From positions 124,001-188,000 of the forward strand of contig NZ_VLKK01000001.1 of the NCBI RefSeq assembly GCF_007830065.1: a stretch of 64,000 nucleotides of DNA. The letters are read 5' to 3'. The notes beneath the pieces were generated by a model. It had not been told where the DNA came from and ran no database searches. It was given only the letters and a program-made list of their open reading frames with translations. Within the stretch, counting starts at the first letter, position 1. Each line of letters opens with the position of its first letter. A program made the translations under genes and the position numbers. Below, one piece after another: positions 55,728 to 59,560 of the stretch. This DNA comes from Sphingobium wenxiniae. Lineage in GTDB: Bacteria; Pseudomonadota; Alphaproteobacteria; Sphingomonadales; Sphingomonadaceae.

Positions 55728-55808
55728 CAGACTGACTTTGCGCTGTCATGCGCAGCCCCTATATGGGCGCTTTCGCGTGCCACGCGCGGTCTGGTCATGG
55801 AGACGAAA

Positions 55809-57014
55809 TTGAGCAAGGTTCTGGTCATCGGCGCGGGCGGCGTCGGCTCTGTCGCGGTTCACAAGATGGCGATGAACCCGGAGATATTCTCGCACGTCAC
55901 GCTCGCCAGCCGCCGCCTCGTTTCTTGCGAGAAGGTCGCCGAATCGGTGAAGGCCCGCACCGGCGTCACCATCGACGTGGCGCAGGTCGACGCCGATGAT
56001 GTCGCCGCCACCATCGCCCTCATCGAGAAAGTCCAGCCCAAGCTGGTCGTCAATCTGGCCCTGCCCTATCAGGATCTCAACATCATGGACGCCTGCCTCG
56101 CGACCAGGGTGGACTATCTCGACACCGCCAACTACGAACCGCGCGACACGCCCAAATTCGAATATGGCTGGCAATGGGCCTATCAGGACCGCTTCAAGGA
56201 AGCCGGGATCATGGCGCTGCTGGGTTCGGGCTTCGACCCCGGCGTCACCAGCGTCTTCGCCTCCTATATCAAGAAGCATCTGCTCGACCGGATCGACACG
56301 CTCGACATTCTCGACTGCAATGGCGGCGACCATGGCCAGCACTTCGCGACCAACTTCAACCCGGAAATCAATATCCGCGAAGTCACCGCCCCCTCGCGCC
56401 ATTGGGAGGGCGGCAAATGGGTCGAAGGGCCTGCGCTCAGCCACAAGCAGGCGTTCGACTTCGAAGCCGTGGGCGAAAAGAACATGTACCTCATGTATCA
56501 TGAGGAACTGGAATCGCTCGCCAAATTCTACCCGGAAATCAAGCGCATCCGCTTCTGGATGACTTTCGGCGACGCGTATCTCAAGCATCTGGAGGTGCTC
56601 CAGAATGTCGGCATGACCCGGATCGACCCGGTGATCTACGAAGGCAAGGAGATCATCCCGCTCCAGTTCCTCAAGGCCGTGCTGCCCGAACCGTCGAGCC
56701 TCGGCTCCACGACCAAGGGCAAGACGAACATCGGCGACATCGCGACCGGCGAGAAGGACGGACGGCAGAAGACCGTCTATGTCTATAATATCTGCGATCA
56801 TGAAGACGCCTATGCCGAAACCGGCAATCAGGCGGTCAGCTACACCACCGGCGTTCCCGCGATGATCGGCGCGGCGATGATGCTGACCGGCGCGTGGAAG
56901 GGCGAAGGCGTGTTCAACATCGAACAGTTCGACCCCGATCCCTTCATGGACATGCTGAACAAGCACGGCCTGCCCTGGCAGGTGAAGGAACTGCCCGCGC
57001 CGCTGGACTTCTGA
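55809..57014 (+). CDS. Carboxynorspermidine/carboxyspermidine synthase (saccharopine dehydrogenase family)
   Basis: A 401-residue NAD(P)H enzyme with Rossmann motif VLVIGAGGVGSVAVHK. It belongs to the saccharopine-dehydrogenase-like family that condenses aspartate semialdehyde with a diamine; with putrescine the product is carboxyspermidine. TTG 55809 is chosen: GGAG lies six bases upstream and the protein then begins MSKVLVIGAGG. ATG 55797 would add four residues. The next gene is the matching decarboxylase, 26 bases downstream, which fixes the pathway. Confidence 0.9.
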   Translation: MSKVLVIGAGGVGSVAVHKMAMNPEIFSHVTLASRRLVSCEKVAESVKARTGVTIDVAQVDADDVAATIALIEKVQPKLVVNLALPYQDLNIMDACLATRVDYLDTANYEPRDTPKFEYGWQWAYQDRFKEAGIMALLGSGFDPGVTSVFASYIKKHLLDRIDTLDILDCNGGDHGQHFATNFNPEINIREVTAPSRHWEGGKWVEGPALSHKQAFDFEAVGEKNMYLMYHEELESLAKFYPEIKRIRFWMTFGDAYLKHLEVLQNVGMTRIDPVIYEGKEIIPLQFLKAVLPEPSSLGSTTKGKTNIGDIATGEKDGRQKTVYVYNICDHEDAYAETGNQAVSYTTGVPAMIGAAMMLTGAWKGEGVFNIEQFDPDPFMDMLNKHGLPWQVKELPAPLDF

Positions 57015-57040
57015 TTTCGCGGGAAGGACGGGAAGACACT

Positions 57041-58213
57041 ATGGAAACCAGAGCCGGCGACCCCGCCGCCTTCGCGCAGTTCGACCTTCACCGCGTCCCG
57101 TCCCCCGCCTTCGTGGTGGACGAGGCCGCGATTCGCCGCAACCTCGCCATCCTGGCCGACATAGGCGAACGCGCCGGGATCAAGGTCCTGGGCGCGCTCA
57201 AGGCCTTCTCCATGTGGTCGCTGGGCGGCGTGGTGGCGGAATATCTCGATGGCGTCTGCGCCTCCGGCATTTACGAAGCGCGCCTGGGCCGCGAGGAATA
57301 TGGCGGCGAAGTCGCAACCTACTGCGCCGCCTACAAGGCACAGGACCTGCCCGAAATCCTGCGCTTGTCGGATCATGTGATCTTCAACAGCCCCGGCCAG
57401 ATCGCCCGCTTGCGCCCGATCATCGAGGCGGCCCGCGCCGAAGGTCACGCCTTCGACATCGGCCTGCGGATCAATCCTCTCCACGCCGAGGGAGAGGTGC
57501 CCAAATACGATCCCTGCCAGCCGCACAGCCGCCTGGGCTTCCCCATCGACCAGTTGAGGGCGGAGCATCTGGAGGGCGTTTCCGGTCTCCATTTCCATTC
57601 GCTGTGCGAACAGGATTTCCTGCCGCTGGAACGGACATGGGCCGCAATCGAATCGCGCGTCCTTCCCCATGCCGGCCGCCTTGAATGGTTGAACTTCGGC
57701 GGCGGGCATCATGTCACCCGTGCCGATTATCAGCGGGAGGAGCTGATCGCCTTCCTGCGCGGCGTCCGGGAAAAGACCGGCCTCCAGCTTTATATCGAAC
57801 CGGGCGAGGCCATGGCCCTGGACGCCGGCATCCTCGTCGGCGAGATCCTCGACGTGATCGACAACGGCATGGAAGTCGCGATCACCGACATTTCCGCCAC
57901 CTGCCACATGCCCGACGTGATCGAGGCCCCCTACCGCCCCGCCATGCTGCACGAGGAGCCGGAAGGCCAGCCGGCCAGACTCGGCGGCCCATCCTGCCTC
58001 GCTGGCGACATCATCGGCGACTATCGAGTCCCCGGCGGCGCGACTCCGGGACGGCGCATCGCGTTCCTGGATCAGGCGCATTATTCGATGGTGAAGACAA
58101 ATACCTTCAACGGCGTGCCCTTGCCCTCCATCTGGCTGTGGAACTCAATGACGGACGAACTCAAGGAAATCCGCCAGTTTTCCTATGCCGACTTCAAGGG
58201 CCGTCTTTCGTAG
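57041..58213 (+). CDS. nspC: Carboxynorspermidine decarboxylase
   Basis: A 390-residue fold-III PLP decarboxylase of the NspC/CANSDC type. PLP lysine is in VLGALKAFSMWS near residue 50, NFGGGHHVTRADY binds phosphate, IEPGEAMALDAG and the catalytic region CHMPDVIEAPYRP follow. It removes CO2 from carboxyspermidine to give spermidine. The ATG at 57041 follows GGAAG. It is downstream of the dehydrogenase and upstream of ornithine decarboxylase, all on the same strand. Confidence 0.93.
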   Translation: METRAGDPAAFAQFDLHRVPSPAFVVDEAAIRRNLAILADIGERAGIKVLGALKAFSMWSLGGVVAEYLDGVCASGIYEARLGREEYGGEVATYCAAYKAQDLPEILRLSDHVIFNSPGQIARLRPIIEAARAEGHAFDIGLRINPLHAEGEVPKYDPCQPHSRLGFPIDQLRAEHLEGVSGLHFHSLCEQDFLPLERTWAAIESRVLPHAGRLEWLNFGGGHHVTRADYQREELIAFLRGVREKTGLQLYIEPGEAMALDAGILVGEILDVIDNGMEVAITDISATCHMPDVIEAPYRPAMLHEEPEGQPARLGGPSCLAGDIIGDYRVPGGATPGRRIAFLDQAHYSMVKTNTFNGVPLPSIWLWNSMTDELKEIRQFSYADFKGRLS

Positions 58214-58262
58214 AGCACGTTTCATAGCCAGCCGCGCAACAAAATTCGTCCATGCGCTTTAC

Positions 58263-58360
58263 AGGGGGACCCCCTCGGCATATATCGCCCTTCCGCTGCC
58301 CCATGGGACTTCCACCGCAAGGCAGCTGATTGCCACGAACTACACTGGAGGTCCCTTGAG
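58263..58360 (+). ncRNA. Candidate structured leader of the ornithine decarboxylase gene
   Basis: Potential H-type pseudoknot: stem 1 GCTGCC (58295-58300) with GGCAGC (58321-58326), stem 2 GGGACTTCCA (58305-58314) with TGGAGGTCCC (58346-58355), the latter 10 pairs with one G-U. Stem 2 contains the Shine-Dalgarno GGAGG (58347-58351) of the TTG start at 58361. A GGGGG-A-CCCCC palindrome lies upstream at 58264-58274. The speF motif is a known alphaproteobacterial leader before such genes; whether this is one cannot be verified here. Confidence 0.5.
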
Positions 58361-59560
58361 TTGCACAAGCACCATAGCGCGCTGGGGGTAGCGACCGCCC
58401 TCAAGCCGGCAGCACCGGTAACGCTGATTCGCCCCCAGGCCGCGGCCAGGGCTGCCCGCTTCTTCGTTGAGAAGTTTCCGGGACGCTCGCTCTATGCGGT
58501 CAAGGCGAATCCTTCTCCCGACCTGATCCGCACGCTGTTCGCTTGCGGAATCACGCATTTCGACGTGGCGTCGATCGCGGAAGTGCGTCTGGTCGCGGAA
58601 ACGCTGGCCGGACAGGATCAGGCGAAGCTTTGCTTCATGCACCCGGTCAAGGCCGAGGAAGCGATCGCGGAAGCCTATCATGCCCATGGCGTGCGGACCT
58701 TCTCGCTGGACACGATGGACGAGCTGGAAAAGATCATGCGCGCCACCGGCGACGCCACCGATCTGGAACTGTGCGTGCGCCTGCGCGTGTCGTCGGAGCA
58801 TTCCGAACTCAGCCTCGCGTCCAAATTCGGCGCGGATTTGAGCGAAACCCGCGAACTGCTGATGGCCACGCGCCAGGCGGCCGACGCGCTGGGCATCTGC
58901 TTCCATGTGGGCAGCCAGGCAATGAGTCCGCAAGCCTATAGCGACGCCATCGAACGCGTCCGCGCGGCGATCGTCGATGCCTCCGTCACCGTCGACATCG
59001 TCGATGTCGGCGGCGGCTTCCCATCGGTCTATCCCGGCATGGAACCGCCCGCGCTGGAAGCCTATTTCGATGCGATCCATCGCGGTTTCGAAAGCCTGCC
59101 GATCAGCTATTCCGCTGAACTGTGGTGCGAGCCGGGCCGCGCCCTGTCCGCCGAATACAGCTCCGTCATCGTGCGTGTGGAGCGCCGCCGCGGCAAGGAA
59201 CTCTACATCAACGACGGCGCCTATGGCGCATTGTTCGACGCGGCGCATATCGGCTGGCGTTTCCCCGTGGCGCTGCTGCGCGACGAGGAAAGCGAGGAGG
59301 AACTGACCGGCTTCTCCTTCTACGGCCCGACCTGCGACGATATGGACCATATGGCCGGTCCCTTCCTGCTGCCCGAAGACGTGGCAGCGGGCGACTATAT
59401 CGAAATCGGGATGCTGGGCGCTTACGGCGCGGCGATGCGGACCGGGTTCAACGGCTTCACGTCGGAAGCGGTCATCGAAGTGGAGGACGAGCCGATGGCT
59501 AGCCTCTATGCCGATCCGGTTCCGGTGCGCCGTCGCGCAAATGTCATCAAGCTGGGATAG
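58361..59560 (+). CDS. Ornithine/lysine decarboxylase, PLP fold III
   Basis: A 399-residue enzyme with PLP lysine K48 in LYAVKANPSPDLI, Gly-rich phosphate loop VDVGGGFPSVYPG, CEPGRALSAE, and the active-site Cys in GPTCDDMD, which is typical of ornithine decarboxylase and related lysine/ornithine enzymes. It makes putrescine, the diamine used by the two genes upstream. The start is TTG 58361 with GGAGG nine bases upstream. The 147-base leader can hide that ribosome site, so translation is likely feedback controlled. Confidence 0.93.
   Translation: MHKHHSALGVATALKPAAPVTLIRPQAAARAARFFVEKFPGRSLYAVKANPSPDLIRTLFACGITHFDVASIAEVRLVAETLAGQDQAKLCFMHPVKAEEAIAEAYHAHGVRTFSLDTMDELEKIMRATGDATDLELCVRLRVSSEHSELSLASKFGADLSETRELLMATRQAADALGICFHVGSQAMSPQAYSDAIERVRAAIVDASVTVDIVDVGGGFPSVYPGMEPPALEAYFDAIHRGFESLPISYSAELWCEPGRALSAEYSSVIVRVERRRGKELYINDGAYGALFDAAHIGWRFPVALLRDEESEEELTGFSFYGPTCDDMDHMAGPFLLPEDVAAGDYIEIGMLGAYGAAMRTGFNGFTSEAVIEVEDEPMASLYADPVPVRRRANVIKLG

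Follow-up and report, generated by a model that had tools for sequence, protein, structure and literature searches.

The leader of the ornithine decarboxylase (ODC) gene in the window, the 64,000-nucleotide stretch of Sphingobium wenxiniae DNA that was analysed, is a member of the published odc1 motif, an already known orphan regulatory RNA that precedes ODC. This motif, also listed as uORF-25-1 (RNA Biol 2021;18:2417; PMC8632094), was reported with 272 alphaproteobacterial examples before ODC, and the assignment was made through its description in the text of that paper. In that description, the ribosome site lies on the 3′ side of the main stem of a hairpin, a pseudoknot links the 5′ end to the hairpin loop, the starts have the form UUG-NN-UUG, and the uORF encodes a peptide of 11 residues whose length is constant (PMC8632094). 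The gene, the clade, the hairpin, the pseudoknot, the UUG-NN-UUG arrangement and the 11-codon uORF are all common to odc1 and the window element, and no difference was found between the published text and the element. The literature search yielded no later odc1 papers, and in the literature searched no odc1 ligand is reported. In our reading, the pseudoknot most probably determines whether ribosomes gain access and which start they use, in response to polyamine state. An earlier note on this DNA had recognized the regulatory layout, which is supported, and had suggested a speF identity, which is not; the overlapping 11-codon uORF and the identity with odc1 had been overlooked.

Architecture of the leader

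The elements of the leader, its predicted promoter and the neighboring genes are as follows.

55797–57014, + strand: carboxynorspermidine synthase-like dehydrogenase, outside the element (NF043000, 443 bits, cut-off 800)
57041–58213, + strand: carboxynorspermidine/carboxyspermidine decarboxylase-like gene (nspC), outside the element (TIGR01047, 388 bits, cut-off 409)
58258–58263, + strand: proposed −35 element TTTACA (TTTAC 35–39 nt ahead of stem 1 in 104/150 leaders)
58281–58286, + strand: proposed −10 element TATATC (first TAT 12–16 nt ahead of stem 1 in 132/150 leaders)
58295–58300, + strand: 5′ strand of stem S1, GCTGCC (4/6 pairs changed on both sides, 98.2% paired)
58301–58304, + strand: loop 1, CCAT (from alignment A1; extra hairpin in some relatives)
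58305–58314, + strand: 5′ strand of stem S2, GGGACTTCCA, anti-Shine-Dalgarno (98.0% of cells paired over 9 pairs)
58315–58320, + strand: loop 2, CCGCAA, candidate recognition site (at least 90% identical in 118 leaders)
58321–58326, + strand: 3′ strand of stem S1, GGCAGC (pair conservation)
58327–58345, + strand: linker (L3), variable, 19 nt (neither sequence nor length conserved)
58346–58355, + strand: 3′ strand of stem S2, TGGAGGTCCC, including the Shine-Dalgarno sequence GGAGG at 58347–58351 (sequence and pair conservation)
58356–58391, + strand: 11-codon uORF, TTG to TAG, peptide MSCTSTIARWG (overlaps the ODC start in a different frame)
58361–59560, + strand: ornithine (lysine/ornithine) decarboxylase, TTG start at 58361–58363 (PF02784, PF00278)

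The two stems cross each other at exactly the coordinates that the earlier note had claimed for them. S1 consists of six pairs and S2 of ten, one of which is G-U, and the segments follow one another in the order of an H-type pseudoknot: S1, loop 1, S2, loop 2, the 3′ strand of S1 (S1′), the linker and the 3′ strand of S2 (S2′). The loop of S2 is knotted by S1, and the complete Shine-Dalgarno sequence is base-paired within S2; that the second stem encloses the entire GGAGG ahead of a TTG start, as had been noted before, is seen in the sequence. The expression platform thus lies inside the conserved structure, with the Shine-Dalgarno sequence within S2, in a leader of ∼70 nt. When a 159-nt leader was folded, its energy was that of shuffled sequences (z = −0.04), so thermodynamic stability was dropped as evidence, and the case for the structure rests on comparison.

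The proposed −35 and −10 elements are separated by a 17-nt spacer, and a strict consensus promoter scan made no call at this pair. A transcription start downstream of 58295, which the earlier note had regarded as speaking against the element, is not indicated, since the promoter-like pair predicts a start at ∼58292–58294, just 5′ of stem 1.

Conservation and distribution of the motif

ODC orthologues were gathered from the genus of the window (Sphingobium) and from its family, and 118 non-redundant leaders were aligned with MAFFT (alignment A1). In this alignment S1, loop 1, S2, loop 2 and S1′ are nearly invariant; they are followed by the variable linker and then by a nearly invariant GGRGGTCYC-TTG-RR-TTG. 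Pair statistics were computed over 15 pairs, namely S1 and the nine-pair core of S2. Across the 118 leaders, 98.1% of the cells hold standard pairs, compared with 37–60% when the partners are slid by 1–3 columns. Double-sided changes were found in 5 of the 15 pairs, four of them in S1, in a total of 20 cells, and no shuffle out of 500 attained any of the five measures. The covariation check proposed in the earlier note therefore came out in favor of the structure, both stems being kept in related leaders. Double-sided changes are few in S2, as the Shine-Dalgarno sequence makes up its 3′ strand. The extension of S2 past nine pairs does co-vary, with a mean of 1.07 extra pairs against 0.82 in shuffled leaders, a value that 0 of 2000 shuffles reached. 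The core GCTGCCCCATGGGACTTCCACCGCAAGGCAGC is identical in every congeneric leader that is readable in full, and there is hardly any variation in the loop nucleotides CCA and CCGCAA.

In the divergent leader L161, S1 is kept with other letters (GTTGCCGCG/CGCGGTGAC), and in the divergent leader L157 it takes the form GCTGACGAGC/GCTCGCCGGC, with one mismatch. In eleven leaders (L154, L157, L158, L161, L172, L174, L183, L185, L257, L288 and L368) loop 1 is expanded to a hairpin whose arms change in step (CCCCTG..CAGGGG, CCCCTA..TAGGGG, CCCTT..AAGGG and CCCCG..CGGGG), a feature that is absent from the published odc1 text (PMC8632094). The linker between S1′ and S2′ is longer by roughly 50–100 nt in L061, L110 and L143, with both ends of the motif retained. 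A candidate for the alternative state of a switch, a competing hairpin in which the 3′ strand of S1 would pair with the linker, has at least four pairs in 37 of the 118 leaders, with ∼20 expected, but permutation of the linkers left the mean unchanged (2.97 vs 2.98). Pairing of GCTGCCCC with GGGGGTAGC inside ODC is possible in Sphingobium but, judged by eye, is broken by GGGGCTAGC in other genera and is therefore not general.

In the genome of the window, model R1 has a single strong match, at 58288–58363. All strong matches in the order sample belong to family f1, and class-wide, among 289 genomes, strong matches were again found in f1 members only. Candidate homologues from outside the family were rejected, as their matches to R1 were weak (E from 3e-4 to 0.05) and lay at unrelated places, with none before ODC. 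The named homologues come from Sphingobium, Sphingomonas, Novosphingobium, Erythrobacter and relatives, the matches being Sphingomonadales genera or MAGs. ODC lies directly downstream of the motif in 108 of 110 loci, and the remaining two end at contig ends; the protein encoded in the window has lysine/ornithine decarboxylase 5gjm as its best PDB match (E 2e-43). The start-site pattern GGRGGTCYCDTGRRDTG was found in 367 of 399 genomes of the family and in 94 of its 96 genera. The start-site motif was found in none of the ten sampled genomes of genus g97, and an ODC orthologue is missing in all three of the g97 genomes that were tested for it. The motif is thus single-copy, always stands before ODC and is present in nearly all Sphingomonadaceae; among the sampled genomes it was not found outside this family. 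The wider sampling also adds to odc1 the optional loop 1 hairpin, rare uORF lengths of 9, 16 and 22 codons, and paired ATG/ATG starts. In family f8, two leaders (L226 and L037) carry GGAGGTCCCATGAATG 5′ of ODC and a short ORF that overlaps the ODC start, without a clear pseudoknot; the model match is weak (E 0.25 in the genome), and they are possibly distant relatives of the two-start arrangement.

The overlapping uORF and the paired starts

A single Shine-Dalgarno sequence serves two UUG starts, that of the uORF 4 nt away and that of ODC 9 nt away, with two nucleotides between TTG 58356 and TTG 58361. The uORF (TTG AGT TGC ACA AGC ACC ATA GCG CGC TGG GGG TAG) ends 28 nt inside ODC. It comprises 11 codons in 163 of 165 distinct leaders from more than 90 genera; in one exception, L105, the stop comes two codons early and the TAG at the usual place is still present. 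The TAG of the uORF requires that ODC codon 10 end in TA, and this codon is indeed GTA, CTA or TTA in 161 of 165 genes; the valine and leucine codon usage of these genes predicts 6.1 ± 2.3. These codon counts show that the uORF stop is under strong selection, and the uORF length is under selection as well. Resampling of synonymous codons further revealed excess conservation in the uORF frame across much of ODC codons 2–10, which is gone at codons 11–12. The third frame also shows excess conservation, so part of the signal may be a nucleotide-level constraint.

Among the 165 leaders, the uORF/ODC start pairs are TTG/TTG in 160, ATG/ATG in four and GTG/TTG in one, and ATG/TTG does not occur. The two start codons change together, as expected if the ratio of starts matters. 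A uORF of another length was found in 4 of 251 leaders, and three of these four are among the 10 leaders with a weak S2, so a weak S2 and loss of the uORF stop tend to go together (Fisher p 2e-4, without correction for shared ancestry; L061, one of the ten, scores as weak solely through its very long linker). The 11-codon uORF is still present in a few leaders in which loop 2 or S1 is altered (L157, L161 and L174) or S2 is weak (L163, L167, L177 and L186), which weighs against the mechanism proposed below. Genus g77 includes one species with the full motif and an 11-codon uORF (L368) and two species that have lost S2 and whose uORFs run to 22 and 16 codons (L369 and L370), which represent natural broken copies. 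Further into the gene, where ODC codon 20 (58418–58420) encodes valine, GTA is used in 54 of 140 genes as opposed to 4% elsewhere in the gene; with the codon that follows, this GTA often creates another stop, TAA, in the uORF frame. An 8-codon ORF that begins at ATG 58303 (MGLPPQGS*) was rejected, as many relatives have AAG in place of the ATG and do not preserve the stop.

The selected stop and the length fixed in more than 90 genera would also suit a model in which the nascent uORF peptide is the sensor. Stalling at the uORF stop under high polyamines (or ornithine) would then block ODC initiation, and the pseudoknot would only set the initiation rate. Stalling of this kind has analogies in the uORF of mammalian AdoMet decarboxylase and in enterobacterial speF leader peptides; to our knowledge, the Salmonella speF leader ORF, unlike the uORF of the window, does not overlap the enzyme start. 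Synonymous choice in ODC is uneven in a manner that preserves Thr4 and Ile7 of the peptide (CAC 126:4 at codon 2 and CAT 81:1 at codon 5), and the excess constraint ends at the uORF stop, which is in line with such a model. However, the peptide differs by clade (..IARWG vs ..TPRL or ..THGL), which is unusual for an arrest peptide; its end near the stop is RWG in one large group and RL, GL or other residues in the remainder. The loops of the RNA are better conserved than the peptide, and the data equally fit a requirement that concerns nothing but the position of the stop. We therefore consider it unlikely that the uORF peptide is the sensor, and retain the reading in which the pseudoknot governs access and start choice.

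Start choice, alternative explanations and related leaders

The layout of a translational riboswitch or attenuator over the ODC ribosome site, inferred in the earlier note from a single sequence, is now supported by the covariation, by the universal association with ODC and by published reporter data. In a leader-lacZ fusion from Sphingomonas echinoides assayed in E. coli, both starts were used, that of the uORF ∼3 times more, and expression was higher in minimal medium (PMC8632094). Mutants M4–M6, which alter conserved nucleotides just before the pseudoknot strand, abolished expression of the main ORF, and in M4 and M5 expression of the uORF was hardly changed (PMC8632094). M4–M6 thus lower ODC expression, whereas hiding of the ribosome site alone predicts a rise, so sequestration by itself does not explain everything, and the drop in ODC expression in loop mutants argues against a lock that only turns ODC off. 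According to these data, the conserved loop nucleotides favor the ODC start (PMC8632094).

The mechanism we prefer starts from a compact H-type pseudoknot that is fused to the start-overlapping 11-codon uORF and would occupy the extreme 5′ end of the ODC mRNA. The pseudoknot would toggle between forms that hide and expose the Shine-Dalgarno sequence according to polyamine state, and its core of loops 1 and 2 may bind a polyamine, ornithine or a related metabolite. Once the Shine-Dalgarno sequence is exposed, ribosomes would distribute over the two starts. One that translates the uORF would cover the ODC start and end 28 nt inside ODC, so use of the uORF would be unproductive and would lower ODC output; the folded core would bias initiation towards the ODC start. 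Of the candidate sensors, namely the RNA, the uORF peptide and a protein, the nearly invariant loops favor the RNA, and the selected uORF stop favors some role for uORF translation. These findings argue that any model must account for the RNA and the uORF jointly. A more elaborate arrangement is possible, although we hold it only tentatively: a two-layer device within ∼70 nt, in which the ribosome site common to both starts is hidden by a pseudoknot aptamer, the uORF acts as a second sensor or decoy, and the fold picks the UUG. If true, this would be a riboswitch that chooses between overlapping frames rather than one limited to switching off, a new mode of control for bacterial ODC. The odc1 motif guards the entry step of polyamine synthesis in a bacterial family that is very common, and the selected stop, the coupled starts, the joint decay of S2 and uORF and the sole target gene turn the published question of start choice into specific tests.

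The small, nearly invariant loops, the single copy and the single target would also suit autoregulation by a protein, such as ODC or an RNA-binding regulator, that binds the pseudoknot and represses translation, with the RNA binding no metabolite. This is rather improbable, as the reporter was active and the mutants had their effects in E. coli, where the sphingomonad protein is absent (PMC8632094). Sequestration of the Shine-Dalgarno sequence in a stable 10-pair stem could in principle reflect a static weak ribosome site or an RNA thermometer that keeps ODC low, but such an element would leave the invariant loops, the conserved pseudoknot, the selected uORF stop and the paired starts unexplained, and we regard it as very improbable.

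The earlier note had suggested that the element might be speF or a variant of it. At the gathering threshold, the Rfam scan of the window gave no matches, the alphaproteobacterial speF leader (RF00518) and SAM-II (metA, RF00521) included, and the same held for a scan of 58150–58450 with E values up to 10. Twelve diverse homologues compared with Rfam at E values up to 1 gave unrelated chance matches only, so RF00518 is unmatched in the window leader and in its relatives alike. The resemblance to speF (Corbino et al. 2005, PMC1273637) lies in an alphaproteobacterial leader of an ODC-type gene and in conservation that begins near the putative transcription start; speF differs from the window element in its much greater length and its fold, and has no described start-overlapping uORF. 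Membership in or derivation from speF, suggested by a downstream gene of the same kind (a COG0019-type decarboxylase), has practically no chance, given the missing covariance-model match and a ∼70-nt leader set against an element of roughly 400 nt whose long stem-loop is bulged and which may contain a four-stem junction (PMC1273637). The speF RNA itself bound none of ornithine, lysine, putrescine, cadaverine, spermidine and diaminopimelate (PMC1273637).

The window element shares with SAM-II a compact form with a single stem and a pseudoknot, and promoter elements just 5′ of the first helix (PMC1273637), but differs from it in sequence and genes and lacks an Rfam match. With the control of Salmonella speF (PMC6386406) it has in common an ornithine decarboxylase leader with more than one regulatory layer, although the leader and the species are unrelated. 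In the window, the three genes in a row at 55797–59560 look like a carboxyspermidine route to spermidine, the matches lying under the curated cut-offs. An operon with the nspC-like gene was rejected as a rule, as that gene is a neighbor in only 12 of 62 named loci; ODC is therefore the constant partner of the motif.
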